From: Telopea speciosissima
Taxonomy: Eukaryota > Streptophyta > Magnoliopsida > Proteales > Proteaceae
Assembly (NCBI RefSeq): GCF_018873765.1
Contig: NW_025317422.1
Coordinates: forward strand, 1-64,000
Direction: 5' to 3'
DNA: 64,000 nt
Shown: in pieces, positions 18,751 to 55,331 of the stretch
Layout: the number at the start of each line of letters is the position of its first letter
Numbering within the stretch: position 1 is the stretch's first letter
Position numbers and translations under genes: made by a program
The notes under the pieces: generated by a model
Database searches by the model: none
The model's input: the letters and a program-made list of their open reading frames with translations, nothing else
What the model was told of the DNA's origin: nothing

Positions 18751-18776
18751 CTGAAGTAACCTAGTAGTTTCTTGCA

Positions 18777-19499: not shown

Positions 19500-19556
19500 A
19501 GCGCGTGGCAGAGGCGTTTCTCCACCTTCTTTGATAAAAAAAAAAAACAAAAAAAA

Positions 19557-21220: not shown

Positions 21221-21292
21221 CGTTTTTGAGGTGCTCCTTCCCACATACGCATAGGCTTGGAAAAATTAAATAAATCTACATCCATTCTCACT

Positions 21293-22929: not shown

Positions 22930-25900
22930 CTGCAGTCAAAAACTACAGATATTATTTTAAACATCAAATAGTTCTGGACATACCTAAAATCAGTTATAAC
23001 AATGGGCCAAATAAAAATCACTTCATAACATGGCCATTACTACCATTTGTCAAGTACTGCAAGCTAATTTGTATTCAACCCTTTCAGGATAATCATAATT
23101 TTAATATACACAAGCCAACGCCACAAACAAAAAATTAATTAATTGAGAGTCAGGGTAGAACTCAAATCAACTCATCCATATCCCAACTATATGGGGTCAG
23201 CTAATTGAAAGCCAGTGTATAAAGCATCAAAAAGCTAACCCTGGGTTGACTGGTGGTGAGAGCTTCCAATGATTGTATAGCCAATGTGATCTTTGCTTTC
23301 TCTCATTTCATGTATGTGTGTGTGCTTTCTCTTAATAGTTGTTTTCTATTCCATCCAATGCTCTCTACCATTATATTTTTTCATTTACCTAAATCCTTTT
23401 GTTATTGATCAAAATAAAATTAAGTGCTAAACTTCATCATAAACTAACAACAGCAAGAGAAAATGGTGAGAGATGCAATCCACAGAATAATGGCATTCCT
23501 AATAATAGGGAATCCTCCGGATCTGTTTAAAGATAGGGGACAACAAGTAGAGTGCCTGGTTACTAAGAGACAGCTACCAAGAGACAGCTTCTGGTTGCTG
23601 TCTCCGGCAACTTCTCTGGCAAGCGATCGATTGGGGGAGAAGCACCTTCTTGAGAGAAGAGAGAGGACGAAAAGAAAGAGGCAAAGAGGAGAGATAAATA
23701 GGGGAGGACTTTTAGGGTTATGGGAGTTCAATTTTAAATATCGGATTTTCAAACTGACCATCGGATTCAAATTAGCCATGTTTCGAGATCCAAGGAAGCA
23801 CTAGGAGAGTGACAAAGTGAGAACCACTATTTGGAAAAAAAACAGGGAAGAAGAGGATTTTTATCTGCTACATTTTTTACATCTTCCATTTTGCCCCTTA
23901 GATGGTTGACACATGACATGTTTAAATCCGATGGTCAAAAATAAAGATAATTCAAAACCCAACCAACCCAATTCTAACCATGGTTTTCAAACCCAACCCT
24001 GACCCAATCCTAACCTTAACCATCATCTTGCCCCTTGTCTTTTCCCGCCCGCGTTGGTGTTTGTGGACTTTCTTCTATTTGTGTAATTTACCCTATATTA
24101 ATTATATATTAAATTAAAGATTAAAATGTTACAGAATCATCAATTTGGCAATGTGGGTTGTGAGGTTGAAGAAAGGAAGGAAGTACCTTGGGTCGTGGGA
24201 GAGAACCATTAGAGGGGGAGAAGTAAGAGTGAGAGAACAGAGACAATCTGCATTTGGACTTGAGGAGAGAGAAGAAGAAAGGTCACAGGGAGGAGGATGA
24301 GGAGTATTCATAGAAGTAACGTCGACATCAATTAGTAATTACTGGTCTGAAACTTAATTTTAAAGGAAGTCGGGCATGGATTGAATGGAAGCAAAGACTT
24401 TTATATTTATTTCTTGGTCTTCCTCTTCAGCTCCGGTACCCCACCAAAAGTTCCCCACATTGCATTGTTTACTAGTGAGGATTAGACGGCATACTATATG
24501 GGATCCACGCAATTATGGAAATCTCAGCCTAAACCCCAAACCCGAAAACCCTAGACCCTAAATCCTAAACCCATAAACCCTTAACCCTAAACGACAAATC
24601 TCAAACCCCAAACCCTAAAAGCCTAAACCCTAAACGCTTGGCTTGTAATATATAAATCCACCCATCAACTGACTCGAAACCACAACATGTACTTGTGTTG
24701 TTTTCCTCTCTTCACTCATTTCTATCTTTCCATATTGCATACTTACAAAAACAAAGGAGCATTTTTTACTTGGGTTTGGGCTTGCTGGAACCATATGCTT
24801 TGTGCTTTAGAAATTTGAGGGGGCTGATCTTCTTAGATTTGTTAAAGCTAGCTTTCCTAAGCCGTATTCTTGGCCATTTTAGATATTATCCTATTTACAT
24901 CACACTGAAGCGATTTGCAATTTATTCTGCACTGTGTTAGCTGGTTTCTCTTGGTTCCTGCTGCAGTATTATAGATATGAATGCAATCTGGTAGTGATAA
25001 AGTTTTTTTAAGCTTCTGTTTGTTATCATTGCGAGATCTACATCTAAAAGCTGCTACGATCTGTGTTACGTTGACAATAGTAGTGTTTACCTATTTGTTT
25101 GTCCGAGATTTCCTCTGCTAACACTTTACTCACATTTGCTCGATTTTAGTAAGTATTAGCAATTGCTAAACTATTCTGATAGATCTTGAATCTTTACTTT
25201 CATCTGTGGTTCCTTATTGTTTATAGGATTTAATACTGCCAGAAATGGCCCTGGCTGGAGTCCTTTGAACCATAGATTTTGTGATCTGGTATCTAAGTTC
25301 ATCCTCTCTGGTTAAGGATATAAGATCCAACTCCTTTTGTTTTCTAGTTTGTGTTGATATCTGTAGGGATGGAGTGGGAACCGAAAATGGATGATCCACC
25401 GATTGAAGCTGATGATGACATCTCAGATCGGCTATTGGCTCCACCAGATACAGCCATTAGTGAACCAGGTCTGAATCTAGGGCCAGTTAATTGGTCTCAT
25501 GTGATCGTCGGTTGTGTTTACCAGTAAGAGAATCACTGCACTGACGGTATCTAAGGCGCTATCAAGTGCTTGGAACATTAAAAGAGAACTGGTAGTCCGG
25601 CAAATTGGCCATAAATTGTTTATGATTCAACTGGAGCATCCGATGGAGGTAAAGACAGCTCTCATCCTAGGGCCATGGCTTATTAAACAAGCGCTTATTA
25701 CTTTTCAGAAATGGATTCCGACTACATCACCGAAGCAACTTCAATTCCATTGGATGGAGATCTGGATGCACTTGTATGGACTTCCGATGCATCTACACAC
25801 TCGCGTTGTAGCAGAGCAAATTGCATGTAAGATGGGGATCTTCCATGATGTCCGCCTACCTATGGGACTAAGGGATTTTGGCCGATCTATCGCAATTCGT

Positions 25901-34613: not shown

Positions 34614-37600
34614 CATATGCTTTGTGCTTTAGAAATTTGAGGGGGCTGATCTTCTTAGATTTGTTAAAGCTAGCTTTCCTAAGCCGTATTCTTGGCCATT
34701 TTAGATATTATCCTGTTTACATCTCACTGAAGCGATTTGCAATTTATTCTGCTCTGTGTTAGCTGGTTTCTCTTGGTTCCTGCTGCGGTATTATAGATAT
34801 GAATGCAATCTGGTAGTGATAAACTTTTTTTAAGCTTCTGTTTGTTATAAATGCTAGATCTAGATCTAAAAGCTGCTACGATCTGTGTTACGGTGATAAT
34901 AGTAGTGTTTACCTATTTGTTTGTCCGAGATTTGGTCTGCTAACACTTTACTCACATTTGCTCGGTTTTAGTAAGTATTAGCAATTGCTTACTATTCTGA
35001 TAGATCTTGAATCTTTACTTTCATTTGTGGTTCCTTATTGTTTATAGGATTTAATACTGCCAGAAACGGCCATGGTCGGAGTCCTTTGAACCCTAGATTT
35101 TGTGATCTGGTATCTAAGTTCATCCCCTCTGGCTGAGGATATAAGATCCAACTCCTTTTGTTTTCTAGTTTGTGTTGATATCTGTAGGGATGGAGTGGGA
35201 ACCGGAAATGGATGATCCACCGATTGAAGCGAATGATAACATCTCAGATCGGCTATTGGCACCACCAGATACAGCCATTAGCGAACCAGGTCTGAATCTA
35301 GGGCCAGTTAATTGGTCTCATGTGATCATCGGTTGTGTGTTTACCAGTAAGAGAATCATTGCGCCGACAGTATCTAAGGCACTATCAAGTGCTTGGAACA
35401 TTAAAAGAGAACTGGTAGTCCGACAAATTGGCCATAAATTGTTCCTGATTCAACTGGAGCATCCGACGGAGGTAAAGACAGCTCTCATCCTGGGGCCATG
35501 GCTTATTAAACAAGCGCTTATTACTTTTCAGAAATGGAATCCGACTACATCACTGAAGCAACTTCAATTCCATTGGATGGAGCTCTGGATGCACTTGTAT
35601 GGACTTCCAATGCATCTACACACTCGTGCTATAGCAGAGTAAATTGCATGTAAGATGGGGATCTTCCATGATGTCTGCCTACCTGTGGGACTAAGGGATT
35701 TTGGCCGATCTTTCGCAATTCGTGTGTCTATTTGTACTGATATCCCACTGAGAGTGGGTATACGCATCAATCGAGAGGGACTGAACCCTTACTGGGTTGA
35801 GATTGCTTATGCGAAGGTGCCTTCATTCTGTTTCTTCTGTGGTATTATCGGCCATGACCAGAGGAACTGTCCGACAAAAAACTCTGAGGAATCAGGATCC
35901 CGATCAACCTTATTCCACCAGCTTGAGGATGAATGCCGGCAAAAATGTTTTGCTCCTATGTTCGAAGAATGGCGTAAGCTTGGAAGCTCTGTTAAACGCC
36001 CCCCGGTGGCACTGCAACTAAGGCTAATGGCGAAAACCATTATCATTGAACGAGAACGGGCTTTTGAATGTTTATACTCATCAAATGGGGGAGACAAACC
36101 TCGTCGGACTGTTCAACCAGATCAACTTGAGGATTGGAGCTACAATCTGAGTGAATTAGTTCGCAGCTACCTTCGTCCCAACACTGTTGACTTCATGCAA
36201 TTTGGACCTAGAGGAGTGCAGGTGGCCTTATTGGGAGGTGCTCGGAACTTAAAGCGTGTCACTAAGGGACTGATGTCATCGAAATTATCCCTCTCTGGCC
36301 GGAGAACTAATGATGCTGATGACATTGTCTTGCCAAGTTGGTCCACCAAGCACCAGTGTGGGTCCTTTGAGACAAAATCGGAACCCCCTGACTTAAACAA
36401 GGAGGCCCCTAACTCCACTGGAATTGAAAACTAGTTTGGATCTAATCCTATATTTGGACCTTTCCCCCCTATTGGGGCTGATCTGTTATTTGGGCCATTG
36501 GCTCTGACTGGGTCTAATACTCTGTCTGAGCTTGATACCCTAGCTGAGCCCCCCGTCCGTTGGTCTTAAATCAGTCAGCGAGACCACGGCCAAAGCAAGC
36601 AATAAGTTCAGTACCTTTAACTGAGATAGCTTTGACCAGTCTCACTCATGGCGTTGCGACTGCAGGTATGGATTCTAATTCCCTCATTGGAGCTATTCCT
36701 TCTCCCCCTCGGGCCATGGAATACTTGGAAAGTTACTCCCAAACTAAAAGTCTTTCTCTGGAAGTGTTGTTCAGATTTAATAGCGGTGAACCACTTGCTT
36801 TATGATAGGCGCATATCACCTAGCCACTTATGTCCCATCTGCTTAAACAATGAAGAAACGGTTGTACATGCCCTGTTTCATTGTGATTTTGCGGCCACTT
36901 GCTAGAGGCTGTCCTCTTTTCGCTTTGACACCCTTAGCATTCAGGGGAAATCAATGACTGAAGTAACCCAGCAGTTTCTTGCAGTGGTTGATCAGTTTCC
37001 TTCCTCTGATGATGCTATTTTTCAGTCGATATCTTTGATTTGGCATATCTGGAAAGCCAGAAACAGTGTGGTCTTTTCGCATACTAACATCTCACCTTAC
37101 GCTGTCATCCCGGGTGCTTATCAATTTGCAATGGAGGGCGGGTTTTGCTTGAAACTTAAACCAGTGCAATTATCATGCTGCCCCCGCTCCCCTGACTACT
37201 CATCCCCCCGTACCAGCCTCATGCTGGTCTGTGTACTCTAATGGAACTTGGAAAACTAATTCTTCTTGTGGTGGCAGGGGTGTTATCATTCGAGGTGATC
37301 GTCAGGAGTTTGTGGTTGCCAAAAGCAAGACTAGCTGTAGCCTATCTGCTCTACCTATGGAGGCCGAGGCTCTTCGGGACGGTTTATTGCTGGCTAGAAG
37401 TCTCTTCTTACAGCATCTTTGCTGCTACTTTGACTCTCCTGGCCTTATCAATTGCTTGAACAATACTTTCAAGGCTCTGGATTGGGCGACTAATGTAATA
37501 GTTCAGGATATTTTGGCATTATGCCATGGCTTTTCAAGTGTAATGTTTAGGTTTGTGCCCCGTTCTAGTAACGATGAAGCTCACGTACTTGCTAAAGGAG

Positions 37601-37758
37601 CTTCTTTGGTTGGTCTGTCTAAAGTTTGGTGGGTTGACCCACCGGCCTTACTTGTAAACCCTGCTATTCTTAATAGCAGGAAAAGCTTTTTTAGGTTCTT
37701 TAAATAAAGCGCGTGGCAGAGGCGTTTCTCCGCCTTCTTTGATCGAAAAAAAAAAAAA
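34614..37758 (+). mobile_element. LINE derivative, unit 3 copy
   Basis: Leader, DUF4283/CCHC part (about 35190-36434, with a stop near 35640), linker, zf-RVT part shortened by about 190 bp near 36732, RNase H part (about 37150-37707), and poly(A) at about 37746. The knuckle CFFCGIIGHDQRNC and the zf-RVT CPIC are intact. The RNase H Asp in YSDGTW is Asn. Broken in several places and not able to make a complete protein. Confidence 0.82.
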
Positions 37759-39390
37759 AAACCTCCTCGTCTGAGTCAGCATCATCTCAACTTGAACGAG
37801 CCCCATCAAATTCCACCTATCAATTCACCTGCAGTCACTCCCCGCAAGAGTTGAGGACCCCACTATTAAGGAATGAATCACAAGAGAGTTGTGTCCAGAA
37901 CAGACCAAACAGCCCAGACTGTCAACCCATAATATCATCGATAGGGACTGACGAACAGATTCACGTAGATGAGGATACAACACCAAGGAAATTAGGGAGA
38001 AGAGAAAGGATGATTGGATTAGGGAAAATGATGGGAGAAAAACGTGTCACATTGAAGAAAAAGGCAGACACTTTGTTGAGATGATGCGGGAGATATCATT
38101 GTGGATAAAGCCCAGCTAGCTCACACCAAAAAAAAAACCAAATTGATGGAATTGGGTGCACGCTGTTGACTGTTCAGTAGTTGCATGGTCTTTGGTATTT
38201 GTACTGCTCGCAGAGTAGCAGAAGCTACTTGGTTGAAATTGATAGGATTTTATTTTTATGTAAACCATAAACCTCATATTAAAACGAAAGATAACAGGGA
38301 TTCAATGTTAATTACAATATCCATAAATAGTTTTTCCGTGTTTTATTTGTGGGCTAATCGATCTGCTAGCTCCGTATGCATTCTACTTCAGTGAGATAAC
38401 CTACAAACAATTTTTAAGTTCTTAAAATAGCAGAGCAAATAAAAAAAGGGGAAATAACTTCAAGCAAATCAAACACATCTGAGAGCAAGTTCACTGTTGT
38501 CCCTGACCAGATCAAAAGCCACCTGCATACCCTTTAGTTCTGCTTTGAGTGCACAGGTGCACATCCATCTCTGACTTTGGCATGGATTTGATTTGAACCT
38601 GGAGAGAACAAAATAGCACACCATCTAGCATCACCAGATAAAAGACTATGATCAGAGATGATCAGATATGTATCATCGAAGCTATTTTCCTAAGATAGTC
38701 TAGGCCATATATATGGGTTAAGCGGCCTCAAATCAGATGTCACAGGCTGGGCAGGTAATTGCTCAATTCTGCAAACTAGTCAAATATAAGATTGAGGTTT
38801 CACATACAGTTTGTTCATAAGCAGGCGATTCCTAGCTTGCCACAAGGAGTAGGCTACAAGAGTCCCATTAGGGAGCCAGATTTTGTCACTCTTCCTTAAG
38901 GTGGGGGGATAAAATAATAGCCTTCATCAGGTTTTTGACTGGCATAGCTTCTAAGAAATTAGTCCGAACTCCCAAAGTAGGATTTAAAACCTTGTTTTAA
39001 CATAGATGTATTGGAGCTAACAGAGATTAGATCTTGTATTGATTCAATCATTGATATTATTGCAGTGTTAGAACAAACGAAGTTTACAAGAGGAAGGAGC
39101 AAAAACGAAAATCAGGAAAGAAACAGGTAAAGGATAATTAACATTTCTCCAATGTTTTAGAAAGCTTACATTCTTTCAGTTTTAGGACGGTGGGTGCTCT
39201 TAAGCAAAGGTAAAATTTTAGCAAGGTAAGGATTCTAATCCCCCAACTGGAATTGCTTGACTTGCTGAAGAATCAGCTATTCAATGTTGCATGATCTCAT
39301 TTATTGTGGATTAACTTGTTGAACCCTTTACCACATTTATCAAAGGTCAAGCACACGATAGAGAAATAAAAAACTTCATCTGGGTGTTCA
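37759..39390. other. Tail of unit 3, 3' flank of the intact DUF3531 gene
   Basis: Matches 19557-21220. It carries the same antisense LINE scrap (about 38490-39000). Because the intact DUF3531 gene ends at 39469 on the minus strand, its 3' untranslated region and polyadenylation site should lie here, but I cannot fix the site. Confidence 0.5.
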
Positions 39391-39468
39391 AGAGGTTTCG
39401 TTTTTGAGGTGCTCCTTCCACATACGCATAGGCATGGAAAAAGTAATAAATCTACATCCATTCTCTCT

Positions 39469-42400
39469 TCAGATCTTGAAGTACTTGTATCCGAACTCAG
39501 GACTCGTCATACCTTCTTCCCAATCACCCATGCGCCGACCACCAAAAACCACCTGTTGAATACCTATATATCTGTCACAAAGTCAAAAAGCAAATTTATG
39601 ATCAATGGGGAGAAAATAGTGATGACAGGTTATCAAACTCCAAAAACTAGTTTCAAAGCCATAAAAAGGTAGTTATCTTCTCCAACAATCAACATCATTC
39701 CTTGTATACTTACTCAGAGCTCAATACAGTTAAGCAATTGAGGAGTACATCAACTGCAAAGAAATCAGATGTCCCAAGGTCTACCCTGTTGGACAAGTCC
39801 AAATCTGTTAGCTCTTTGTATGCATTAATATTTAGAAGAGCACAACTTTTCCATTATGAAAGCAATGGTATAGTCAAGACTCCTACCAAACCCGGCCCCA
39901 GTTGTCCTGAAATTCCACATCACCAATATCGTGGAATGATGATGGCATCACTTTGAATCCTTTATCTGTATCATAGGGAGGATTATACTCCATGGATGTA
40001 TTTGCCAACTGCAGTGCATAATATGCAAATGTCAGTTTGTTCCATTAACAGTAGGAGGACGAGAATCAAATATTGTTAAGGCTGGGGTGGATGTCAACTT
40101 GATCAAGGGATTGGACTGTCGAGTCTGCTTGACTTGACTCAGTTACATAATATGGTGTAATTCTAAGGGATTTTCTTATCGATACCCTCAAGTTATCAAA
40201 TAATTTGTGACCTTATTGTTTTGGCCATTTAGTATAACATATAATTTTTCCAATGAAGGATAAATATTGTCATTTCACATGTATAATCGAAAAATATGTA
40301 TGACAATGACAATGATATGTCATTTTCAAATTGTTTTTGGAAACTCTTTTATACCCTTAACTTAAAGATCTTTTGAGAATATTACAAGGGGCAACTAAAA
40401 AGAAGGTGTCAAGTTCAAAATACTTAAGAGGTGTCATTTAGACACTCCCATAATTAAATGAGTATCTTTGCATCTAAAAATATATTTAAAAAAAAAATAT
40501 GCTAGCAATTATAGCAGCACCACTCTACAACCAATCAATCAAATTTGGAGCGAAGATAGTCATCACTAAAGCAGATGCTAGCTTCATTTTCACGTGCAAA
40601 ATAATGCACTTCATTTATCTGTGGAGTACAAGTGCGTGGCAATGCTAATGGCAGGGTTTAAAAGTGGCACTCAATCTATAGTCAGCGGTTAGAAGTCACT
40701 GCGGTACTTCTGGTATTTGGGTGCTCTAATTTCAATGAAGGAGCAAAGCAACTATGATTTTGGAAGAATTGCTGATTAATTGTCTTCTCTAAAAATTATA
40801 AAAACTAGGATTCCAAGTTTTTCAAAGATGACAGAAAGAGAAATATTCACAGACCTGCAAATTAGAAGAGTTAAATGCTCCCAAACGCCCCATGACATAC
40901 CATGACTGAATAACCTGCATAATTATTTAGTTCCTAAAACCAGGAAATCCAAAAAACAGTAGCTATTGTGGACAAAGGGAAAAAAAAAAGGGGGGGGGGG
41001 AAGGGAAAAAAAAGGGAAAGAATGAAATCAGCAACTTACACTACCAATGATGTCAACATCACGGTCAGATGGAGATCCATATAGTTCAAACCATATGAAG
41101 GAATCGATGGGATTGAAACTGCAGCCAGAAACTACAGATATTATTTCAAACATTAAATAGTTTTGGACGTATCTAAAATTAATTATAACAATGGGCCAAA
41201 TAAAAATCACTTCATAACATGACCATTACTACCATTTGTCAAGTACTGCAAGCTAATTAGTTTTCAGCCCTTTCAAGCTAATCATAATTTTAATATACAC
41301 AACCTAACGCCACAAACAAAAAATTAATTAATTAAGAGTCAGGGTAGAACTCAAATGAACTCAGCCTTATCCCAACTATATGGGGTCAACTAATTGAAAG
41401 TCAATGTATGAAGCATCAAAAAGCTAACCCTGGGTTGACTGGTGGTGAGAGCTTCCAGTGATTGTATAGCCAACGTGATATTTGCTTTCTCTCATTTCAT
41501 GTATGTGTGTGTGCTTTCTCTTAATAGTTGTTTTCTATTCCGGCCAATGCTCTGTACCATTATATTTTTTCATTTACCTAAATATTTTTGTTATTGATCA
41601 AAATAAAATTAAGTGTTAAACTTCATCATAAACTAACAACAACAAGAGAAAATGATGAGAGATGCAATCCATAGAATAATGGCATTCTTAATAATAAGGA
41701 ATCCTCCGGATCTGCTTAAAGATAGGGAAAAACAAGTGAAGTGCCAGCTTACTCTCTAAAGCTGACTTTGAAGGCAAGAACGGAACCCGTTTTGGACTTG
41801 CGAAAATCACGACCTTTCTTTCGAACCCTGTCTGCGACCTGTCAAAGCTTTACTTCTTTAAGGTTCATGGTTTTATTCTCCGCTAAGGACAGTGTTTGGG
41901 AACAAAAATCCTCTCTTACCTAAACCACATAAGATGAGAAATTTAGACCATAAGTAACTAAGACAGAGAAATTGAAACATACCCTTTTTCTCATGAGTTC
42001 AGGGTTTCCGATGCTATCGCCGAGCACGACTCGAAGCTCCTCGTCTTCTCTGCAAGCAGTCTCCAGGATTCTGCCACCAAACCCCGACAACGTCCGAGTG
42101 GTTAGACACGAGATACGAGTGAGTGAGAGAGAGAGAGAGAGAAGATGAGTTAAAGAAAGGAGATGATTTTTTTTACAATTACTTGGCCCAGGTGGGATAA
42201 TTATGGAGACGATTATATTCGCGCTTTCTCTTCTCCTCTCTGAGTTTGAGTAATCTACGTCCCCTGGCCGTCGTTCCCGACCCTTTCGCTGTCATTGTCA
42301 TTCCACTTGCATAACTATTATTATCATTGGTGTTGATAGTGCCATTGGTGCTGGAACCATTAACGCTCTCCCCTTCCGAATCGTCCCGAACCATAGCTCG

Positions 42401-42589
42401 AATAGCACTCGGTCCGGTTGAAAAGAAGGGATTGGGTGGCTTCTGCTTCTTCGTGTTCGGAAACACAACCACCGAGAATAGCAGTGATGCTGATGACGAA
42501 AGAACAGAGAAGGAAGAATAAGGAGGAGAAGGAGAAAAGAATTGATTCCACGGAAAATTCCTCACATCGAAGCAATTCATCACCGTCAT
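39469..42589 (-). CDS. DUF3531 family protein, probably plastid-targeted (intact gene, 8 exons)
   Basis: Minus-strand exons 42589-42183, 42070-41983, 41838-41753, 41118-41040, 40914-40855, 40008-39887, 39785-39714 and 39571-39469 have GT-AG borders and matching phases, giving 338 residues. The N-terminus (MTVMNCFDVRNFPWNQF, then Ser-rich with few acidic residues) looks like a plastid transit peptide. A charged helix follows (GRRLLKLREEKRKREYNRLH). The family core then reads ELRVVLGDSIGNPELMRKR, FNPIDSFIWFELYGSPSDRD, SWYVMGRLGAFNSSNLQ, DLGTSDFFAVDVLLNCLTVL and VVFGGRRMGDWEEGMTSPEF. The pattern matches the uncharacterised plant and cyanobacterial DUF3531 family (Arabidopsis At5g08400/At4g29400 type, from memory). 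Function is unknown. Exons 4-8 lie in array-homologous DNA; exons 1-3 are single-copy here. The start is the first ATG in frame; a second lies three codons later. Confidence 0.88.
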
Positions 42590-43183
42590 CTTTGCCGCTT
42601 CGTCTCTCTCTCTCTCTCTCTCTCTCAATTTATGCTAACGAGTGACCTAAAATGTTTACAAAAAAAAAAAAAAATGAACGAAGATGGGAAAAAGAACGCT
42701 GCCAAGCTGAATTCCCTGCACCCACACACAAAAGGGGCAAAATGACCATCCTCTTATTGGTTAAGGGTCGTAAAATGAAACCAAAATCGAATACTGGAAT
42801 CAGAGTCAATCATTTATGATTTGAACCAAACTGTGCCGCATAAAAATGATCCAGTTTTGATTTCATAAGTTCTCTATTCGGTTCGATTTTAATTTGCAAC
42901 GTAAAATTGACGATTCTAAATTAAATAGGAATCGAAAAAATCCGAATAGAAATCGCTACCTCTCACTCGAATATTAACCAATACATCAATTGAGTTAATT
43001 AATAAAATAATAATTAAGAACATAAAATAAGTAAAAACGATGAATGATGATAAAATGGATTAACAAAACCCTATTTACTAATGGAAGAATAGTTTGTTTT
43101 TTCTTTTTCTCGCATGATAAGAAGAAGAAGAAGAAGAAGAATACGAAGTATAATTTATTAAATAGAAAGGGAGAAGAAGAGGG
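42590..43183. promoter_or_regulatory. Divergent intergenic region between DUF3531 and SIP1
   Basis: The two start codons are 594 bp apart on opposite strands, so the promoters share this stretch. It holds a TC/GA microsatellite (42602-42626) in the DUF3531 leader and an A-run. An AT-rich patch with CGGTTCGATTTT and GAATCGAAAAAATCC may be a decayed repeat. An AAG microsatellite (about 43117-43140) lies in the SIP1 leader. I see no clear TATA box for either gene. Confidence 0.5.
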
Positions 43184-46100
43184 ATGGGTGTGGTCAAGGA
43201 GAAAATTATCACCTCCAGTTTACTGACCGGCCCAGTTCCCCAGTTCCTCTAATAGGGGGATGGTGGACCCCACCCGGGCAGGGTGTTTGGGCATGGGTAG
43301 AGAGGTCATTTCAGCCCCCCTTTGTTAGAGGAACTGGGGAACTGGGCCGGTCAGCAAATTGGAGGTGATAAAGATCCGTGGTCAAGGTAGCTATCGGTGA
43401 TGCGGTGTTAACTTTCATATGGACGCTCTGCGCGTCCACACTCGGGATCGCCACCTCCATTATCCAAAATGCGCTAGGATTCCAAAGCAATGCGTCCGGC
43501 CTCGTCATCACCACCTGCCTCATTGCCTTACAAGTCTTTGTCTTAACCTTGCTTAGCGACGCCAGGGGTGGCGCCAGCTTCAATCCCACTGGCACTGCTT
43601 CTTTCTACGCCGCCGGCATCGGTGATGACAACCTTATCTCAATGGCCTTGCGCTTCCCTGCTCAGGTTTGCTTTCATTTTCATTTTGCGACTCCTTTGTC
43701 TTCTCTCTTTTCTTTCCTTTCCTGATTTCATTTCCTGCTGTTTGGGCATTGATATTGCTGCTTCTTTTGCTTCCGCTGAGAGCCTGTCCCAGGTGGATAT
43801 TTGGGGTTTGGGATTTGATATTCATTTGGACTCTCTATGGGCAATGGATTTGATTCTTTTTGTTCTGAATTCCCTTTGCTCTTTCCTTGAATGTCTACCT
43901 TTAAGGTAGAAAGATTTTTTTTTTTTTGAGAGAGGGTTGGGGAGGGATGGATGTTTCACGAAGCAAAATTTTAATAATTTTAGACGCAGATTTGCGTTCA
44001 TGTGGAGCGGAAAAGATTGAACAGTTGAAAAATCGCAAATAAAGGTTACCTTTCTGGTGAATGTGAACAGGCAATTGGGGCAGTGGGCGGTACCTTGGCA
44101 ATTATAGAACTGATGCCGCCGGAGTACAAACACATGCTTGGTGGGCCTTCACTGAAAGTCGACTTGCACACTGGGGCCATCGCCGAGGGGGTCTTGACCT
44201 TCATTATCAGTTTTGCCGTCTTATATATAGTGTTCAAAGGTCCGAACAACCCACTTTTAAAGGTTTCGATGCTTGCTACGTCGACTGTTGCACTGATTGT
44301 TGCAGGATCTAGTTACACTGGACCGTCTATGAATCCTGCCAATGTAAGTAGTTCCCTTTATTTTGCTGCCATTAACTTACCCTTCATTCTCCTGGTGACT
44401 AAGGCTCTGTATGGTAACGTTTCTGTTTTTTTTTAGCGTTTTTGGGTCCGACACACTTTTATGTGTTTCTCTGTGGTTTACCAAAAATTACATAATTGCC
44501 ACCTACACCATGGCTTTTTATACTTATGGTTTTTTAGCAAAAAAAAAAAAAAAGGCAAACATCACAATTAAAAACTACTTAAATTTATTTAGGCAGTACA
44601 ACCATAAGTTTAAACAAGTTATTACAACTGAATTATAGAGTTGAAATAAAACATAAACAAGAACAATTAATATGATCATGTCTTGAATGGCCTTCACGAC
44701 CAGTGTTCAATCACCGGACCAGTGTTCAATCACCGGATCTGTTCTTCCTTCTCTTCGTATTAGGAGACCTATCATGCCTGTGAGTTGGAGGTTGGCTTCG
44801 AGCCGGTGTGTGAGTAAGTTCGGGTCGAGTGCTGAGTATCTCATCTATCCCATCAGCTGAGCTAGACTCATCAACAGACTCATGATCATCCCTCTTCGTC
44901 TCAAGTAAAATAACCTTAAACAGTAAAAAGAATCTTTGTTAGACACTTCTGATTTCATTTTCCTCCAATTCTGATTTGATAACCATAATCTTTTCTAATC
45001 ATAATCAAAATAACATGGTTAAGGAGATCTAGTAGTATGATTTTAACAGCAAGTAAGATCTACTGGTAGTGATTTTTGTGGGTTAAAGAGATCATGCAAA
45101 GGGCATGCCTTCATAAAAATCACCTATTTTCTTCAAACCTAAACTCAACATATAACCATAACATCATTCTTACCCAATACTAACTCAAAATCTGTAGAAT
45201 AGAGCCAAAGAACAACATTATCTAACACTTTATTTTGGGCAAAAAACCTACCCGAGTTACCTACAAAATTTACAAGCAAGAGGTCCACCAACACTCCTTC
45301 ATGATTTGTTCCTTTCTATAAAAGCTCAATTCTTGGAATTCCAGAATCATGTTTTGATATACAAGTTTTGCCCACCAATTCTAACACACACATAATTTGG
45401 AACTTTTATTTGGTTGCCACTAATTCTGCAGATATGTGAATCAATTCTAGACCAAAAAACAGAGGATTTTCTTATCTCAACCCCTGGTTTGTTTTGTTGA
45501 AGAGCCTGATCGTTGGATCTCTCTCTCTCTTTTTCCTTCTTCTTTTTGAAAGGGTTTTGGCTCACCTGATAGTATGTTTCTTTAGCTGTGTTTGTTTTAA
45601 GTTATTGGTAGTGATGATTTTCTGTTGCTGTAGTATCTAAGTAGCATCAAACTCAATATTAATAAAAATGAACCATAACACTACTAGGACTTGAGATTGA
45701 GTCATACATTGACTCAATCCAAATAAACCATTCCAATCCCAACAAAAGTGAGACAGCATTGTGCAACCAAGAAAATGGTTCACCACTTCCATTGAAATTT
45801 CTCTTTCTAGTCTAATGCAAAGCCAAATCTAGGATGATTTAGCCTCACAATACAACCCAATAGAGAATAACTCTAAGCAGATTACTGTAGGATATACCAA
45901 ATTAGTATACTATCCAGCAGCGTATAACAGAATATTCTCTTCCTTGTAACCTCCACAATAATGCCCAACTCAGGTTCAGATATGTAAACACAGCATACAA
46001 ATCAGTAATGAAACCTGACCTCCCGATTATACTTGTTTAAAGGTTCAAATAAAGAAAATCAACAAGTCCAAGATTACTGTCGAGTCAAGATCAGGAATAG

Positions 46101-49100
46101 AAGAACAAACCTTGAGAGTTTCAGATGATTCTGACGAGCCAATCGAAAATTGAGACTTATAACCAGAATTTTTTCATGCATTTGTTGCCAGAAGATGAGG
46201 TAGATTCTTCTCCTTCTCTTCGATTTCTTTTCTTCTTTTTAAACAACAAGTAGGAAGAGATGCGGAGAAGAAGAAAGAAGGGAAAAAAAAAAACCCAAGA
46301 AGAAAGACAAGCAGAAGAAAAGGAAAATGAAAAACGAAAACAAAAAAACACAAAACTTACCGGAGGAAGGGAGGATGCACTCACCGGAAGAATGAAGTTG
46401 AGGAACTTTATTCTGCGACAAAGGTTGAGTGGGATGGAGAGTTGCAAAGGTTGATTGCGCTTCTCTTCGCGCTAGAGGTTTTCTCGGATTTGCAGAGGTC
46501 AAGCGAAGAAGAGCGACAATTGTGAGTTTTTAGGGTAAAAAACCAATATTGTTATGTTTAGATGACAAGTTCCAGTTTTGCCCTCATTAACTTAATTCGG
46601 ACTTGTGTTTCTCCGAAAATTGGTGAAGTGTTTCTACCAAGTGAGAAACACCACTTTGGTGTTTTGCAAATGTGTGCTAAAAGTGTGCCAAGTGTCCGGT
46701 TCGTTTAAAAAAAACAAAAAATCGAACCAGGCATACCACTCAGATTTTAGCGTGTTTCTGTTAAAAAAAAAAAAAAAAAACGAAAAAACACCAGAAACAC
46801 TAAAAAAGAACGTTTCCATACAAAGCCTAAGTTGTCACATGTATGCATCACTGGATAGCTCTGTTTACCATTTTCACTGCACCATCCTTTTGAATGCTGC
46901 TTGTGACTGGCCCTTTCTTTTCTCGAGCCATTGGCTTACAAATTGTTCAGCTGGATCCGATCATTATCTTATTTTCATGTAAAAATTGCCATGAGTTTGG
47001 ACAGCTTAGTAGCTTTCTTGTTGTTTTTCATTTCATGCTTAATATTTATTCTACAGAATTCGGAATTTTGTATATTAATAAATTGGATACATCTACTGAT
47101 TGTTGTCGTCCCAACTGAGCAGCATTATTCTTACTTGTGTAGCAGTTCATATATCAAATTATCAATTATAAACCATGAGAACTTTTCTTCAACACCAACC
47201 AAAGTAAACAACTGGATTGAGTATTCTGATAAGCTTTTTGGACTTGAATCACATTGGGCGGAAGTTTTTGTGACTGTTGGATCTTGAAAAATTCTGCTAT
47301 GTCAAACAAAAATGGAATGTTTTTGTAAACAGCCTTGGAATTAATGCTTAGATGATCTGATCGATCATCCCAACCTCTTATTTATAATAAAAACAAATTA
47401 CAGCAAAGATAGGAATCCCCCCCAATCCTATTCCTACTAGGAATTCCCACTATAACTAGGAATCCCAAATAGGAATCGTATAGGGGAGAAAAACAGGGAA
47501 AAAACAATTAAAAACTAATCAAACTAAAATAAGAAAGGAAAGCCAACTAGGACTAGGTTACCCCTAGTGGGTAACGTAGCGTTATCTCAACACTCCCCCT
47601 CAAGTTGGAGCAAAGATGTCGATCATTCCCAACTTGACTAGATTGGGATGAAACAGCTTCCCAGACAATCCCTTAGTGAAGATATCTGCAAGTTGATCAG
47701 TAGACGTCACAAAGGGAATGCAAATCAACCCTTCTTCTAACTTCTCTTTGATGAAATGCCTATCCACCAACATGCTTGGTACGATCATGCTGTACTGGGT
47801 TATGTGCGATGCTGATTGCAGCCTTGTTGTCACAGTACAACATCATAGGAAGACGAATAGGAACACCAAGATCTTGTAGCAGCCCTTTAAGCCAGAGTAA
47901 CTCACAAATCCCTTGTGCCATAGCTCGAAACTCAGCTTCGGCACTAGAACGAGCAACAACATTTTGCTTCTTACTACGCCACGTGACAAGATTTCCACCT
48001 ACAAAGGAGCAATACCCAGAAATAGACTTGCGATCTGTAGAACCAGCCCAATCAGCATCAGTGTATGCTTCAATCCGTAGATGACCATGTGTAGACAAAA
48101 GAATTCATTTTCCAGGAGCTGACTTCAAATAGTGCAAGATACGAAGAACAGCCTCCATATGTGAAGAGTAGGGATCATGCATAAACTGGCTCACAGTACT
48201 CACGGCGACAGCAATGTCAGGACGAGTGTGTGAAAGATAAATCAGCTTCCCTACAAGTCTTTGGTACCGGCCTTTATCAACAAGCTCACCCTCTTTCTCC
48301 TTGAGTCGAACAGTAGGGTCCATAGGAGTATCTGAAGGATGACAGCCAAGCAACCCAGTCTCAACCAATAAATCTAGGACATACTTCCTCTGGGAGAGAA
48401 AAATGCCTTTAGAAGATCTGGCTACTTCAATCCCAAGAAAGTATCATAGTTTCCCTAGATCCTTGATCTCAAATTCTTGTCCAAGGAAGGTCTTCAACAG
48501 TCTGATCTCATCACCATCATTGGCAGTAACCACTATATCATCAATGTAGACTATAAGAACAGTGAGTTTTTCACCAACCCTCTTTATAAAGAGTGTGTGA
48601 TCAGCATTACTCTGCTTATAGCCCACAGAAATCATGGCCTTGTGGAATCGCCCAAACCATGCTCGAGGTGACTGCTTCGGCCCATAAAGTGCACGCTTTA
48701 ATTTACGTACTTTTCCTTGGTTTCTGTCACAAGAGAATCCTGGTGGAATGTCCATATACACCTCCTCATCCAGTGTTCCATTTAGGAAGGCATTTTTTAC
48801 ATCTAGCTGCTCCAAATCCCATCCAAGGTTGACTGCACAAGATAATAACACACGAACAGTATTTAACTTGGCAACAGGTGCGAAAGTTTCCTGGTAATCA
48901 ATGCCGTATGTCTGAATGAACCCTTTGGCCACGAGTCGTGCCTTATACCTATCCACAGTGCCATCCACCTTCTGTTTCACCACAAACACCCATTTGCATC
49001 CAACGGTTTTCTTCCCAGGTGGAAGAACCACAAACTCCCATGTGTTATTTTTTTTCAGGGCTTCCATTTCTTCCATCATAGCTACCTTCCACTTTTTGTC

Positions 49101-52100
49101 TGATAAAGCTTCCTGCCAATTGTTAGGAATACGAACAGAAGAAAGAGAGGAAACAAAGGCACAAAAGGATGGGGAAAGGGAATCATAAGAAACAACATGA
49201 GATATCGGATGCTGAGTGCAAGATTTGACACCTTTGCGAAGAGCAATAGGTAAATCAGGAACATTACCAGGTGGAGAGGCAGGTTCTGGATATGGGTTCG
49301 GCAATTGGATGGGTACTAGAGCAACAGTTGATTGGACCTGCTTATGTTTCCTTGCATAGGTCTTCATATTACTGGCATCAATCCTCCTCTGAAATTCACT
49401 AATAGTCCTCCGGACAAGAGTCTGGACCGGGGTAGCTTGCTCCCGCTGAATAGAAATGGTCTCCCCCTGTATAGGAACCTCTCCCCCTGACTCAGGGGGA
49501 GTACCAGGGGCAGGCCGAACTGGTTCAGACTCATGGTAAACAGACTGAAGTGGAGGTGGAGAGTCAATAGTCAGCACATCTTTACTAACATTCTCCCCCT
49601 GAAGAGGTGGGGACACATAATATGGAACATTTTCATGAAAGACAACATCTATGCTGACAAAAGTCCTGCGGGATGGAGGGTAATAACATTTGTACCCTTT
49701 TTGGGTAGCAGAGTATCCCAAGAAAATGCAGCGGAGGCCACGTTGGTCAAGTTTACCAGGGGACCTTGTATCGCTGGCATAACAAACGCAGCCAAAAACT
49801 TTAGGTGGGACTATAAAGGAAAAAGAGCCAAGTAATAGCTCAATAGGGGCTTGCGAAACAAGAACACGACTGAGCAACCTATTAATTAAATAGGCTGTAG
49901 TAAGGACAGCATCCCCCCAATAAAGGGAAGGGATATTGCGAGCAAACATAAGAGCCCTAGCCACCTCGAAGAGGTGGTGGTTTTTTCTCTCAGCCACACC
50001 ATTTTGGGCTGGAGTATCGACACAGTTGATCTGATGGAGGATTCCATGTGCAGTAAGGTATTTTTGGAACTGACCTTCCATATACTCTTTCCCATTGTCA
50101 CTCCTTAAAATTTGAAGAGTGGCATTAAATTGGGTCTTAATCATTTGATGAAAGTGCTGAAAACATAAAAAAACTACACTTTTTGTGTGCATAAGGTATA
50201 CCCAAGTGAACCTAGAATAGCAGTCAATAAAAGTGACATACCACCGATGGCCAGTCAGGGTAGCTTTCCTACTAGGCTCCCACACATCAGTATGAACAAT
50301 ATGGAATAAGGAAGAGGATCTTTTATTAGAAATAGGGTAAGTTGAACGTGTCTGTTTAGCCAAGACACAAGGCTCACAAAAAAAGTCTTCCTATTACAGT
50401 CTTTAACTAATGCAGGAAATAAATTGGATAAAGTACCTAAGGGGGGATGGCCTAGTCTAGAGTGCCATTTATGTAAGTCAGAGGAGAAAGATGCCGAAGG
50501 TAAAGTCTGAGTATGTTTAGGATTGCCATCAAGTAGGTACAATCCACCATGCACTTTACCAGATCCAATTGTCTTCCCCGAGTCCAGTTCCTGAAAGACA
50601 CAGTGAGTGGGAAAAAAAGTTACTTTACAATTCAGGGATTTAGTGATACTGCTAATGGAAAGAAGGTTAGTTGTAAATTTGGGAATATGCAACACAGATG
50701 CAAGGTTCGAGAACTCGGGTCTCGGTGGCATCTCGGCTAGGCCAGAAACCGAGTCGAGCCGAGATCTCGCCGAGATCTCGGCGAGTTGGTGCAATTTTTT
50801 TTTTTTGGACTCGGACCCCCAACTCGGTGGGTTGTACACATATTTTGGGTCTGAAACTTGGTATCCAGCCTATTTCAGGCCATTTAAACACAATGGCATG
50901 CCCAGATTTGCCAAAAAACAAGTCCAAATATGAGTTTCACTTTGGACCATAGGTTGGTAGGCGACGAGTCGTACTAAAAGTCTAAAACAACATAATCTAT
51001 ATATAATTTAGTAAAACATAGCAAATTAGCAATCAAAACATTCTAATTAGGGCAAAGATGTTCTAATCCATGGGGCTGTAGAGCATCCCAAGTAGTTTAA
51101 CATATATCAAAATCATTTTCAAACAATCACTATTCATCCTATTTTTTTCATTTTCTTTTTTCAAATAAATCATTTATTTTTCCAGAAATTATAATAAATA
51201 ATTTATTAACTGAAAAAAAAATCCGACTCCATGAAGTGATAGATCGGGCAAAGATGTTCAACATATATTAAAACCACATGAATCTAACAAGGATTACAAA
51301 ATTTTTTTTTGGAAAAAATAGATTTGGGGAAGAAATAGAAAACACCTTTGAAATCTTGCAAATAGGTGATGATGCTCCAAATTGGCACTTGAATCTTCAC
51401 TTTGGCACTTCAATCTAACTCCAAACAGTGCATTCCATCCAACAATCGAAAGAAAGAAGAAGAAATTTGAAGGAGAGGTTTTTTTCCCCTTGGTTTAGAG
51501 CCTAAGAACACGTTCTGCTCTCTCTTATGTTGGAAATGGTTTTTGGGTGAAAATTGGGCTAAATACAACTAACTAGCATCTTTGGGCCCAACCGAGATCT
51601 CGCCGAGATCTCTGCGAGATATTGGTTTTTTTGTACTAAAAAAACCATGATTTTCACCTTCGAGATATCACCGAGATCTCGGCGAGATCTCGAGATCTCG
51701 GCGAGATCTCGGTCGAGAAATTGTAGTTTTTTGTACCGACTAGGAACTCGACTCGGTTTTGCCCAAAACCGAGAAACTCGGCGAGATCTCGGCGAGATCT
51801 CGCGAGTTCTCGAACCTTGCACAGATGACAGTGTAAGAGAAGGAGAACAACCAATGGATCCTTTCCCTGAGATGGAGGAGAGGGACCCATCAGCAATTTT
51901 AACTTTATCCTTACCAGAAGCAGGAGAATATGTATTAAAAAGACTGGAAGAACCTGTCATGTGATCAGTAGCACCAGAGTCTATGATCCATGGAGTGGAT
52001 GCTACTGATGCACAATGACCAGCAAAGGAAATACCTGTACGGGCAAAGAAGGAACCTGAATTGGCAGTAGACGTAGTAGAGGAAGCAGATGTGTTCAGCA

Positions 52101-55100
52101 TACGATGTAGAGCCTGGAGTTCTTCCTGGGAGAACCCGATGTCAGCAGTGGGAGTTGGAGCTATACTTTCAATGTGATTGGCTTTGTTTTTAGACTTAGC
52201 ACGACCACGTTTAGCCTCAAAATCAGCTGGCTTCCCATGTAATTTCCAACACTGAGCCTTAGTGTGATATAGTTTGTGACAATGCTCACACTTAACAGGC
52301 TCTTTGGTAGTAGTAGTAGAAGTAGCAACACTGTCAGCAGAAGCAATAGGAGTGGAACCAGCAGTCTGGAAGGCTGATCTCTCAACTTTGGGAGTAATCA
52401 TCATGGCAGCCCTGCGTGTCTCTTCACTATGAACATAAGAAAAGGTCTCCTTTAGAGTAGGGAAAGGAACCCGTCCAAGGACTTGCACCCGAATTGGGTC
52501 ATAGTCATCATTGAGGCCAGCCAGGAAATCATAGACACGGAATTGGTCTACATAGGTGTGGTAGGCAGTAATATCAGTAGCAGTAGTAGGCTGAAACCGA
52601 GCATAGTGATCCAATTGTTGCCATAAACACTTGAGGGTAGCATAGTATTTGGTGACAGACATCTCCTTCTGAGTAGTGTTTTGGAGTGTCTTCCTAATTT
52701 CATAAACCTGAGCACCACTACCTGAACGACCATAAGTGCCCTTGACAGCTGTCCATATTTGTGTAGCAGTGTCAAGGAGAAGATACTGACTAGAGAGGTC
52801 AGTGGTCATAGAGTTTAGAATAAAGGACATTACCATTGCATCATTGGCAGTCCATGCAGTACGAGCAGCCCCTTCTTCAGTAGGTTGTTAATGTAGTCCT
52901 AGATAGGTAGGAGATCTACTAGGAGCCAAACAACCGGATCAAATAACAAAAGGGGCTGTTGGTTCGAATGGACAGCACTAGGATTTAGGTCAATTCCTAG
53001 GGTTTGGGTGGATATTGGGAAGGGGGTTTATAGGGTATTAATGGGCAGGTCTAGGGGGTCAATATGGTATAAAAAGGTTAGGCTTTGGATGAGTTTTGAA
53101 ATTCTGCAATTCTGGACAGAATTGAGTTGCAGGTTTTGAGCTTTAATGGAGTTAGGGTTTATGGGATTCAAACAAAAAATAAAGGGGATCAATTGGGGGA
53201 AAGGATTAGAGGATTAGAAGAAGAATTTTGGCTTCAAACTTACTGGAGATTCCACTGATAGCAAGCTTCGACAGTTGTAAAGGATAAAGCCACCTTCGAA
53301 TTTGAAGAAGATCCTCCCAGCCGTCACGGCGTAAGGAGTCAACCGGATTCCACCAGTCCCTTTCCACCTTGATAGTACCACAAGGATGCATACTCACAAG
53401 GAGCATAGGATTAGCAACAATGGCAGCCAACAAGCAAAAGCTTTTTTCATTAATCAAATTCGTGTCCAATGCTGGCCTCCCTTACAAACTTATATAGAAG
53501 ACTCAAAAATAGACTTAGACACTAAAAAGGAATGGCCTAATCCTATCCCTAACCTATTAGGTAATTTAAATTGACTAGGAAACTAAAATACTAAAGGAAA
53601 TAGACTCAAAACATGGCTGGACTTATAGAGTCCTAATCCAGCCCAACTTACATCACATGACCACTTATGTTGTCACATGACCACTTAAGTTGTCACATGA
53701 CCACTTAACCAAGTCACATGATCACTTAAATTGAACCAATTGGATGCAACCAATTTGAACCGGTTCAATTAGAAAACATAAAAATAAACTAAGTATTGGG
53801 CTAATCCCGTATGCAACCTATGTACCCCTAGTTTAGGCTCATTAACGTGGCCTAATACATAGAAAACCCTTGGGAACAAAGGCCCAACATGTATATAACC
53901 CAACCCTAGGCCTATTTCTAAAGAAATAAGGCAATATCTATGATGAACTTGCATCAGTTGTTTGGTGGTACCAGTAAGATGGCCAGTGAGTCCCCTTCCA
54001 GCCACTGTTAGGGATAATGATCTGGCTCAAATTAAGTAGTTTGTACCATAAAGCTTGATGGCAGCAGCATAAGGGAGAAAATCAGACCTTGTTTGATCTC
54101 CTCCAGAAGTAGCAATAGTCATCTCTGAGTCACCCATGATTCAGCCAAGTAGTAGTAAAAATCAGATCTTCAAAAAACCTGATTCGAGTGTGAATAATGG
54201 GTTTTGAAATTGCAGAATTTTCAGCCTGCAGAATGGGCTGAAACTGATGTCGAGTTTCCCTCTAATAGCAGGGAAGATATCTGCCAAAAATTAGCTCTTT
54301 CTAATAAGCCAATAAAAAGCCCTAAATTTTTGCCAAATTTAGGAATAAAATTTGATTGCAGAAACCCTGATTGCAGGAAAAGGATGCAGAATTGGATCTA
54401 AACCAATGCTGTAGTCTTCAAACAAGGACTGGTGCAAACCAATAATAGCAGGAACCAAACTCCATAAGTGCAGAAATCAAACTCCAGTTGAAAAATAGTT
54501 CGATCTCCAAGGATGGAAAAAACCTGCCGGCAGAAATAGGTCACACCTCTGTTCTTTGATCTTCAATGAGGTGACATTGAGGGCAGCAACTAAATTTGCA
54601 TTCTATCACCTCATAGTTGCTGCCCTGATGGAGAGAAAGAGGCCGAGAGTGGTGGAGAGGAAGAAAAAAAGAAAAAACTGAGAAATAAGAGAGAGGAGAG
54701 AACCAGAAATCGAGAGTAGCTGTTCCTAGATCAGATTAGGCTCTGATACCATGTAAACAGCCTTGGAATTAATGCTTAGATGATCTGATTGATCATCTCA
54801 GCCTCTTATTTATAATAAAAACAAATTACAGCAAAGATAGGAATCCCCCCCAATCCTATTCCTACTAGGAATTCCCACTATAACTAGGAATCCCAAATAG
54901 GAATCCTATAGGGGAGAAAAACAGGGAAAAAACAATTAAAAACTAATCAAACTAAAATAAGAAAGGAAAGCCAACTAGGACTAGGTTACCCCTAGTGGGT
55001 AACGTAGCCTTATCTCAACAGTTTTTATGTTCCATACTACATCACCATAAACTTTTTTCTTTTTGGATAGAAAGAATCACCTTGTTAATGAACTGTGCTT

Positions 55101-55331
55101 TTGTACTGCTGTGATGCTTCTTTATTTTCTGATTTTTGAAGATACCAAACTTGATATAACTACTGCAAGGTTTTATACATGCAGGCCTTTGGTTGGGCAT
55201 ATGTGAACAACCGCCACAACACATGGGAGCAGTTCTATGTTTACTGGATTTGCCCTTTTGTTGGAGCAATTCTGGCTGCTTGGGTCTTCCGGGTTCTTTT
55301 CCCTCCTCCAGTCAAGCAGAAGAAAGCATGA
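43184..55331 (+). CDS. SIP1-type aquaporin (small basic intrinsic protein), exon 1 interrupted by a MITE
   Basis: Exons are 43184-43199 plus 43388-43665 (exon 1, split by a MITE), 44071-44343 and 55185-55331, all phase 0. Apart from the insertion they encode 237 residues, the usual SIP1 length. SIPs are water channels found mainly in the ER membrane. Diagnostic parts: MGVVK then VAIGDAVLTFIWTLCAS, the first pore motif as NPT (GGASFNPTGTASFYAAG), GAVGGTLAIIELMPPEYKHM, VDLHTGAIAEGVLTF, the second motif NPA (YTGPSMNPAN then AFGWAYVNNRHNTW), and a basic tail (PPPVKQKKA). NPT rather than NPL separates SIP1 from SIP2. As it stands the ATG frame stops after 22 codons inside the MITE, and the downstream frame has no in-frame ATG before the first pore motif. 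The gene may be dead, or rescued by splicing. Intron 2 is 10.8 kb because of transposons. Confidence 0.88.
43200..43377. mobile_element. Mutator-like MITE in SIP1 exon 1 (178 bp)
   Basis: Inverted ends share TTATCACCTCC, then nearly AGTTTACTGACCGG and GGCCCAGTTCCCCAGTTCCT; the right arm is their reverse complement. Flanked by a perfect 10-bp duplication GTGGTCAAGG (43190-43199 and 43378-43387), the length range expected for Mutator-like elements. The duplicated bases encode V-V-K of SIP1. Insert plus duplication is 188 bp, not a multiple of three, and the element brings an in-frame TAA. Confidence 0.88.
44403..46827. mobile_element. PIF/Harbinger-like DNA transposon, internally decayed (SIP1 intron 2)
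   Basis: A 2,425-bp insertion with ends GGCTCTGTATGGTAACGTTT and the inverted partner AACGTTTCCATACAAAGCC, flanked by TAA (44400-44402 and 46828-46830). TWA duplications and such ends suit PIF/Harbinger. I see no DDE transposase. On the minus strand a short frame near 44705-44925 (ETKRDDHESVDESSSADGID through RSPNTKRRKNRSGD) could be the C-terminus of a second protein. About 46180-46520 looks like a leader with pyrimidine-rich sequence. Probably a non-autonomous derivative. Confidence 0.7.
46831..47323 (+). other. SIP1 intron 2 sequence between transposons
   Basis: About 490 bp of AT-rich DNA between the Harbinger-like element and the Copia element. Open frames across it are short and unlike known proteins. 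It appears to be original intron. Confidence 0.5.
47600..50839 (-). CDS. Copia pol region: integrase, reverse transcriptase, RNase H
   Basis: Minus-strand frames give, in order, the pre-integrase motif (HSRLGHPPLGTL), the integrase core (HTDVWEPS, ILRSDNGKEY, NGVAERKN), reverse transcriptase (CKWVFVVKQK, YKARLVAKGFIQTYGIDYQE, QLDVKNAFLNG, VYIDDIVVTAND) and copia-type RNase H (YTDADWAGS, SSAEAEFRAM, LYCDNKAAISIAHNPVQHDR). These parts copy and integrate the element in active relatives. The main frame (48444-50363) is long and little damaged, in keeping with a young insertion. Lineage within copia was not assigned. Confidence 0.88.
50701..51819. mobile_element. hAT-like non-autonomous element nested in the Copia element (1,119 bp)
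   Basis: Perfect terminal inverted repeats CAAGGTTCGAGAACTCG and CGAGTTCTCGAACCTTG with the 8-bp duplication CACAGATG (50693-50700 and 51820-51827). Both ends are packed with CGAGATCTCGGCGAGATC-type subterminal repeats. The AT-rich middle has no transposase. 8-bp duplications and CAAGG ends point to hAT. Confidence 0.9.
51820..54139 (-). CDS. Copia gag region (split by a solo LTR)
   Basis: On the minus strand the N-terminal part (MGDSEMTIATSGGDQTRSDF) begins at about 54139. After the solo LTR the main part continues with SQYLLLDTATQIWTAVKGTY and RVYDFLAGLNDDYDPIRVQV (UBN2-type gag), the knuckle CEHCHKLYHTKAQC, and a protease-like WIIDSGATDHMTG near 51980. Gag packages the element RNA. The tail of this region abuts the hAT element at 51819. 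Confidence 0.82.
52889..53956 (-). mobile_element. Solo gypsy LTR nested in the Copia gag
   Basis: A 1,068-bp insertion; on the minus strand it runs from TGATGCAAGTTC to GGACTACATTA, flanked by ACAAC (plus strand GTTGT at 52884-52888 and 53957-53961). It is homologous to the LTR at 60294-61432, which has the same termini. Its 3' end is therefore TA rather than the usual CA. No internal sequence remains. Confidence 0.82.

Follow-up and report, generated by a model that had tools for sequence, protein, structure and literature searches.

When a transposable element lies 16 bases into the reading frame of a SIP1 aquaporin gene, has the plant lost a water channel, has it gained an intron, or is there another explanation? 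The window considered here is the whole stretch of 64,000 nucleotides, bases 1-64000 of a 124,177-bp contig (C86) in an assembly that totals 822.9 Mb in 1287 contigs. Viewed alone, it would be read as the loss of a water channel or the birth of an intron; an intact sister gene elsewhere in the genome, on the chromosome-size contig C11, corrects that impression. We consider the C86 gene most likely to be an ordinary dead duplicate, and neither a lost function nor a newborn intron, because the same genome holds an intact, insert-free SIP1 copy on C11. This explanation and its four rivals are mutually exclusive, and we put a probability of roughly 0.8 on the C86 gene being a duplicated, non-functional copy, hit by a miniature inverted-repeat element (MITE), that would share a recent ancestor with the intact C11 gene. 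From sequence comparisons we infer its lack of a product, the order of events and its status as a duplicate rather than an allele.

A MITE in the coding start of SIP1

The features of the locus are as follows, with the evidence for each in parentheses.

42762-43099, plus strand: tail of a dispersed repeat adjoining the SIP1 leader, where C11 keeps native upstream sequence (ends of repeat matches)
43093-43183, plus strand: remnant of the SIP1 5′ leader common with C11; similarity ends at 43093 (blastn)
43184-43199, plus strand: first 16 bases of the SIP1 coding sequence, from the start codon on; they contain the first target-site duplication, 43190-43199 (sequence)
43200-43377, plus strand: MITE of 178 bp with terminal inverted repeats, from a family with Mutator-type 8-11-bp duplications (duplication and genome copies)
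43378-43665, plus strand: rest of SIP1 exon 1, from the second duplication at 43378-43387; donor GT at 43666 (frame; no Pfam match alone)
44071-44343, plus strand: SIP1 exon 2 (Pfam MIP, E 0.00043, below the curated cut-off)
44404-46826, no strand assigned: insertion of ~2.4 kb in intron 2 with CTAAG at both flanks, absent from the C11 copy (comparison with C11)
47324-55020, minus strand: LTR retrotransposon in intron 2, with LTR pieces at 47324-47592 and 54752-55020 identical at 264 of 269 bases; absent from C11
55185-55331, plus strand: SIP1 exon 3 with the stop codon, identical to C11 (Pfam MIP, E 2.5e-6, above the cut-off)

The start codon of the C86 copy is the ATG at 43184, and GTGGTCAAGG occurs at 43190-43199 and again, at a spacing of 188, at 43378-43387 as a perfect 10-bp target-site duplication. 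The 178 bp between the two copies form the MITE, whose inverted-repeat arms (43206-43259 and 43318-43371) are 91% complementary. The initial annotation had reported a 10-bp duplication and a 178-bp element within the coding start, and the exact repeats and matching arms bear this out; its placement of the insertion in codon 5 holds in that the MITE is inside the coding start, and is refined in that the duplication spans codons 3-5 and the first base of codon 6.

As had been claimed, the frame opened by the ATG at 43184, which translates as MGVVKEKIITSSLLTGPVPQFL, ends within the MITE, at a TAA at 43250-43252. The SIP1 frame itself is open from 43372, just past a TAA at 43369-43371, and its earliest ATG lies at 43642, past the NPT motif, in agreement with the annotated lack of an in-frame start. 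The MITE destroys the start of the C86 SIP1 copy, which is without an intact reading-frame start. A hairpin is predicted behind the start codon (-134.5 kcal/mol, z -11.5), and 0 of 200 shuffles were equally stable. A MITE, probably of the non-autonomous Mutator type, has entered the coding sequence 16 bases from its start and left the SIP1 frame with no ATG before 43642; transcripts that begin translation at the old ATG would encode 22 residues and would carry the very stable predicted hairpin just past the start codon.

The rest of the gene had been described as intact, and all three exons (43378-43665, 44071-44343, and 55185-55331) are indeed open: apart from the MITE they contain no stop and no frameshift, and the splice dinucleotides are kept. 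The refinement is that exon 3 sits 10.8 kb past exon 2, across two large inserts. The same annotation offered three interpretations, namely a gene that has just died, a null allele, or an insert removed as a new intron. Loss of function survives from these, but a death that has only just happened is not supported; a new intron is disfavoured, and a null allele is the less likely form of the loss.

SIP1 copies and the relation of C86 to C11

A genome search with 43378-43700 as the query matched four places, C86 itself, C11 (97%), C2 (82%), and C7 (80%). At C11:56925687 the MITE is absent and ATGGGTGTGGTCAAGGTAGCT runs uninterrupted, and the full frame encodes a 237-aa protein that has the NPT and NPA motifs and KQKKA at its end, all of which are likewise present in the C86 translations. 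The C11 gene is intact in sequence, and claims of gene loss made from a single window need such a whole-genome check for paralogues. The start is also uninterrupted in two older paralogues, that on C2, which has three exons, and that on C7. Exon 1 of the latter is open; blastn did not find exons 2 and 3 within 7 kb (C7:15495000-15502000), and this paralogue is perhaps truncated, or else contains a long intron. We take the empty state as ancestral, because no footprint is seen at the C11 site and because the genes on C2 and C7 begin alike.

SIP1 aquaporins have a basic C-terminus. The C11 protein matches Pfam MIP (E 1.8e-19), and the solved relatives among its listed matches all belong to the aquaporins or related MIP channels, the best being Aquaporin-4 (E 1.1e-12). 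It resembles the SIP1 subfamily (small basic intrinsic proteins) in its 237 aa, its NPT followed by NPA, and its lysine-rich end; unlike that subfamily, the C86 copy is broken after 16 coding bases and carries G62S and M65R near the first NPA-type motif. PMC8304918 gives the SIP1 motif criterion as an altered first NPA (NPT) with a conserved second NPA, and describes BpeSIP1;1 as a protein of 239 aa with NPT/NPA. A limited literature search found no paper on Telopea aquaporins, the only match concerning Dendrobium.

The C86 segment 43093-59035 is collinear with C11:56925602-56931004, with identities of 95.5-97.7% in four long pieces and 90.7% in the 107-bp leader piece 43093-43199 (blastn). 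Four insertions in C86 are absent from the C11 block: the MITE, the ~2.4-kb insertion, the 7.7-kb LTR element (Copia-type by eye, from its ORFs), and ~230 bp past the gene. Intron 2 measures 10.8 kb in C86 versus 711 bp in C11, with ~10 kb of inserts in the C86 intron, which later insertions would have enlarged. Non-coding sites differ at 159 of 4594 (3.5%, or ~1.7% per copy, with the 85-site leader left out), the longer stretches ranging from 2.4 to 4.1%.

These figures bear on whether the MITE, or the entire C86 copy, is an assembly artefact, as could be supposed of a small contig that is one of 1287. The perfect 10-bp duplication and the three changes of the MITE from its family consensus (two of them unique among 40 copies) are, however, unlike misjoined or collapsed reads, as is the extent to which the longer non-coding stretches diverge from C11 (2.4-4.1%), and we regard an artefact as extremely improbable.

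A more serious alternative is that C86 represents the C11 region on another, highly divergent haplotype, with the MITE as a segregating null allele and no separate duplicate. C86 is small and has several blocks in common with C11:56.84-56.93 Mb, and the copies may have exchanged sequence over exon 3, where 310 bp carry no differences. However, the non-coding divergence of 3.5% compares with a heterozygosity of 0.76% quoted for Telopea speciosissima in PMC13080361, which also gives 11 scaffolds and 823 Mb; the low-copy blocks that lie 3′ of SIP1 in C86 are 73-87 kb upstream of SIP1 in C11; and outside the SIP1 block there are only short or repeat-like matches of >80% to 39.8 kb of C11. The opposite substitution patterns of the two copies, described below, also fit separate loci better. 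We favour a duplicate over an allele because of the divergence relative to the quoted heterozygosity and because of the block positions, two blocks being displaced and one of them inverted; the null allele of the initial annotation becomes rather unlikely, though still deserving some weight.

The two low-copy blocks are C86 61425-63212, at 93-98% to C11, and C86 85521-92963, at 92-98%, which is inverted and has repeats between the matching pieces. Their arrangement suggests that a segment close to the end of C11 was duplicated and rearranged. A third stretch shared by C86 and C11, upstream of SIP1 in both, is at least partly repeat sequence and was not counted. The other C11 matches (>100 bp, 80%; 39.8 kb) are two C86 stretches at 86-87% to C11:56946740-56947800, together with this third stretch, and are repeat-like. 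C86 64001-70800 has repeat-like matches only, with none to C11 56.8-57.0 Mb among the 42 listed. The C11 counterparts of both low-copy blocks lie at 56.838-56.852 Mb.

Within the collinear segment, the 310 bp at 55022-55331, which take in exon 3 and the last part of intron 2, are the same in C86 and C11, and the neighbouring non-coding stretches differ by 2.4-3.0%; this identity may reflect gene conversion, constraint, or chance.

Upstream sequence, coding change, and splicing

In the leader, 4 of 85 aligned sites differ between C86 and C11. The junction with the dispersed repeat is sharp, as 26 of the 65 other repeat matches listed end at 43098-43099 (query 1399-1400), and none extends beyond query 1403. 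We aligned positions -400..-95 of each copy locally to the C2 and C7 upstream sequences, with 200 dinucleotide shuffles for each. The C11 sequence scores 79 and 86, respectively, reached by 0 of 200 shuffles in either comparison, versus 21 and 18 for the C86 sequence, reached by 147 and 196 of the 200. A shared GA run gives a good part of the C11 score; with GA/CT runs removed, C11 scores 52 and 56 (0/200 each, the top shuffle reaching 50 and 39) and C86 scores 18 and 18 (reached by 200 and 195 shuffles). By this measure, homology of the C11 upstream sequence to C2 and C7 is weak but present. The C2 and C7 upstream sequences gave no blastn match (E 0.01) to those of C11 or C86, and when 841 bases from upstream of the C11 gene were searched against the genome, neither the C2 nor the C7 SIP1 gene was among the best 40 of 600 candidates. 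Because native upstream homology is not seen in C86 and the dispersed repeat meets the leader at 43099, we infer that this copy lost its own promoter; the break with the native upstream region, ~85 bp ahead of the ATG, would coincide with the edge of the repeat.

The coding exons point the same way. C86 and C11 differ at 11 of 708 shared coding bases, and with C2 as the outgroup the C86 branch has seven non-synonymous changes and one synonymous, versus zero and three on the C11 branch (Fisher P 0.024), a small count in which the 7:1 rests on 11 differences. In exon 1, codons 18, 19, 27, 58, 62, and 65 carry differences specific to C86. At least seven non-synonymous changes among eight are expected with a probability of 0.38 under neutrality and 0.027 at dN/dS 0.30, and eight neutral changes would include no nonsense mutation with a probability of 0.76. 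The pairwise ratio is 0.56 (dN 0.013, dS 0.024), not above 1, and this is the value expected if only one branch is free. The C86 coding exons thus appear to drift while the C11 copy would be maintained, and the locus has the look of apparent duplicate-gene decay, with upstream loss, transposon insertions, and relaxed coding change.

Could splicing nonetheless restore a product? We scanned introns of >60 bases from the ATG at 43184 to acceptors at 43372-43420, keeping those that are in-frame and stop-free, and scored them with a dicot matrix, for which only a large gap to real introns is meaningful. Six such pairs span the MITE, all of them weak by this matrix. The pair proposed in the initial annotation, GT 43190 with AG 43386 (giving MGVAIGD), scores -9.07, in keeping with its remark that the sites look weak, and the two introns of the gene itself score 6.78 and 9.03; on the same matrix this donor is at the 23rd percentile and the acceptor at the 42nd of all GT and AG dinucleotides in the window at 36-64 kb. 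Nor is it the best in-frame pair, which is GT 43188 with AG 43390 (giving MAIGD) at -2.92, again by this matrix.

If the MITE were spliced out and C86 still made a slightly shortened SIP1 protein, it would be a nascent intron of DNA-transposon origin in a land plant, with splice sites straddling the duplication, a notable case beside the Introners covered in PMC9860276. The MITE is like these Introners in its small size, its TIRs and duplications, and its position within a coding exon; Introners of Florenciella obtain their two splice sites from the sequence into which they insert, and the remaining C86 exons are open. However, even the best of the six pairs is far below the gene's own introns on this matrix, native upstream sequence is not seen in C86, and the coding changes look unconstrained. 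The MITE differs from Introners in its lack of strong splice sites (by the same matrix), and the large survey in that paper, which spans animals and land plants, records Introners there in only two groups, each of them animal, and none in land plants. A new intron, proposed earlier, is therefore disfavoured and seems to us very unlikely. Among literature titles on MITEs spliced as new plant introns, nothing bore on the SIP1 case.

An in-frame ATG might instead come from a new exon further upstream, perhaps under the control of the repeat, and rescue the C86 copy, the SIP1 frame being open back to 43372 with possible acceptor AGs ending at 43373, 43386, and 43390. These acceptors, however, lie at the 52nd, 42nd, and 62nd percentiles of all AGs (by the same matrix), and the C86 coding changes argue against a working product, such that rescue of this kind is scarcely to be expected.

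The MITE family and the age of the insertion

A genome search with a 217-base query containing the MITE gave 3092 first-look candidates, of which the best-scoring 40, the SIP1 copy included, were examined. Identity to the query is 95-100% over the matched part of the 217 bases in these best 40 of 3092, and because 40 places in the same genome scored with the element, its presence at SIP1 is not a matter of chance resemblance. All 40 copies examined are 178 bp long without gaps, and all 40 are flanked by target duplications of 8-11 bp, allowing offsets of a few bases: 37 are exact at 9-11 bp, two are exact at 8 bp, and one is of 9 bp with one mismatch. The consensus has terminal inverted repeats and no coding capacity, as judged from its termini and six-frame translation.

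The duplications of 8-11 bp and the inverted termini are like those of Mutator-like (MULE) non-autonomous MITEs, and duplications of this size are the criterion for candidate coding-MULEs in PMC3903597; unlike TIR-MULEs, for which the same paper gives TIRs of 100-500 bp, the SIP1 MITE has arms of ~54 nt in a total of 178 bp. The insert is most likely a non-autonomous Mutator-type MITE.

The SIP1 MITE has three differences from the family consensus, the highest number among the 40 copies examined; two are unique, and a change at the first base is common to one other copy. Three of 178 is 1.7%, equal to the non-coding divergence per copy, with an interval of 0.35-4.9%, and this wide interval means that the insertion could be near the age of the duplication or much younger. 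Recent death of the gene was considered as a candidate and set aside, the SIP1 MITE being the most diverged of the 40 best-scoring copies of 3092 and the C86 branch count being 7:1. A gene that has just died, as first proposed, is also unlikely in light of the 3.5% non-coding divergence and the missing upstream sequence, wide as the age interval is.

Copies of the family vary very little: of the 40 best-scoring ones, 17 are identical to the consensus, which suggests a recent burst; because of these 17 copies the family looks recently active. When the empty sites of the 40 copies were joined, nine, including SIP1, had a frame open across 210 bp, versus 4.4 expected by simple shuffling, and this mild excess raises the possibility that insertions of this family fall within or close to genes more often than expected by chance. 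The frames at the other eight sites resemble no known proteins by eye.

Elsewhere in the window, an Rfam search of 41000-47000 and a Pfam search of the minus-strand ORF at 42182-42634 gave no match. Positions 1-41753 form a nested, tandem-like array of repeat segments (18523-23564 and 36730-41753, for example, are 94% identical), with ORFs that by eye encode non-LTR retrotransposon-like proteins.
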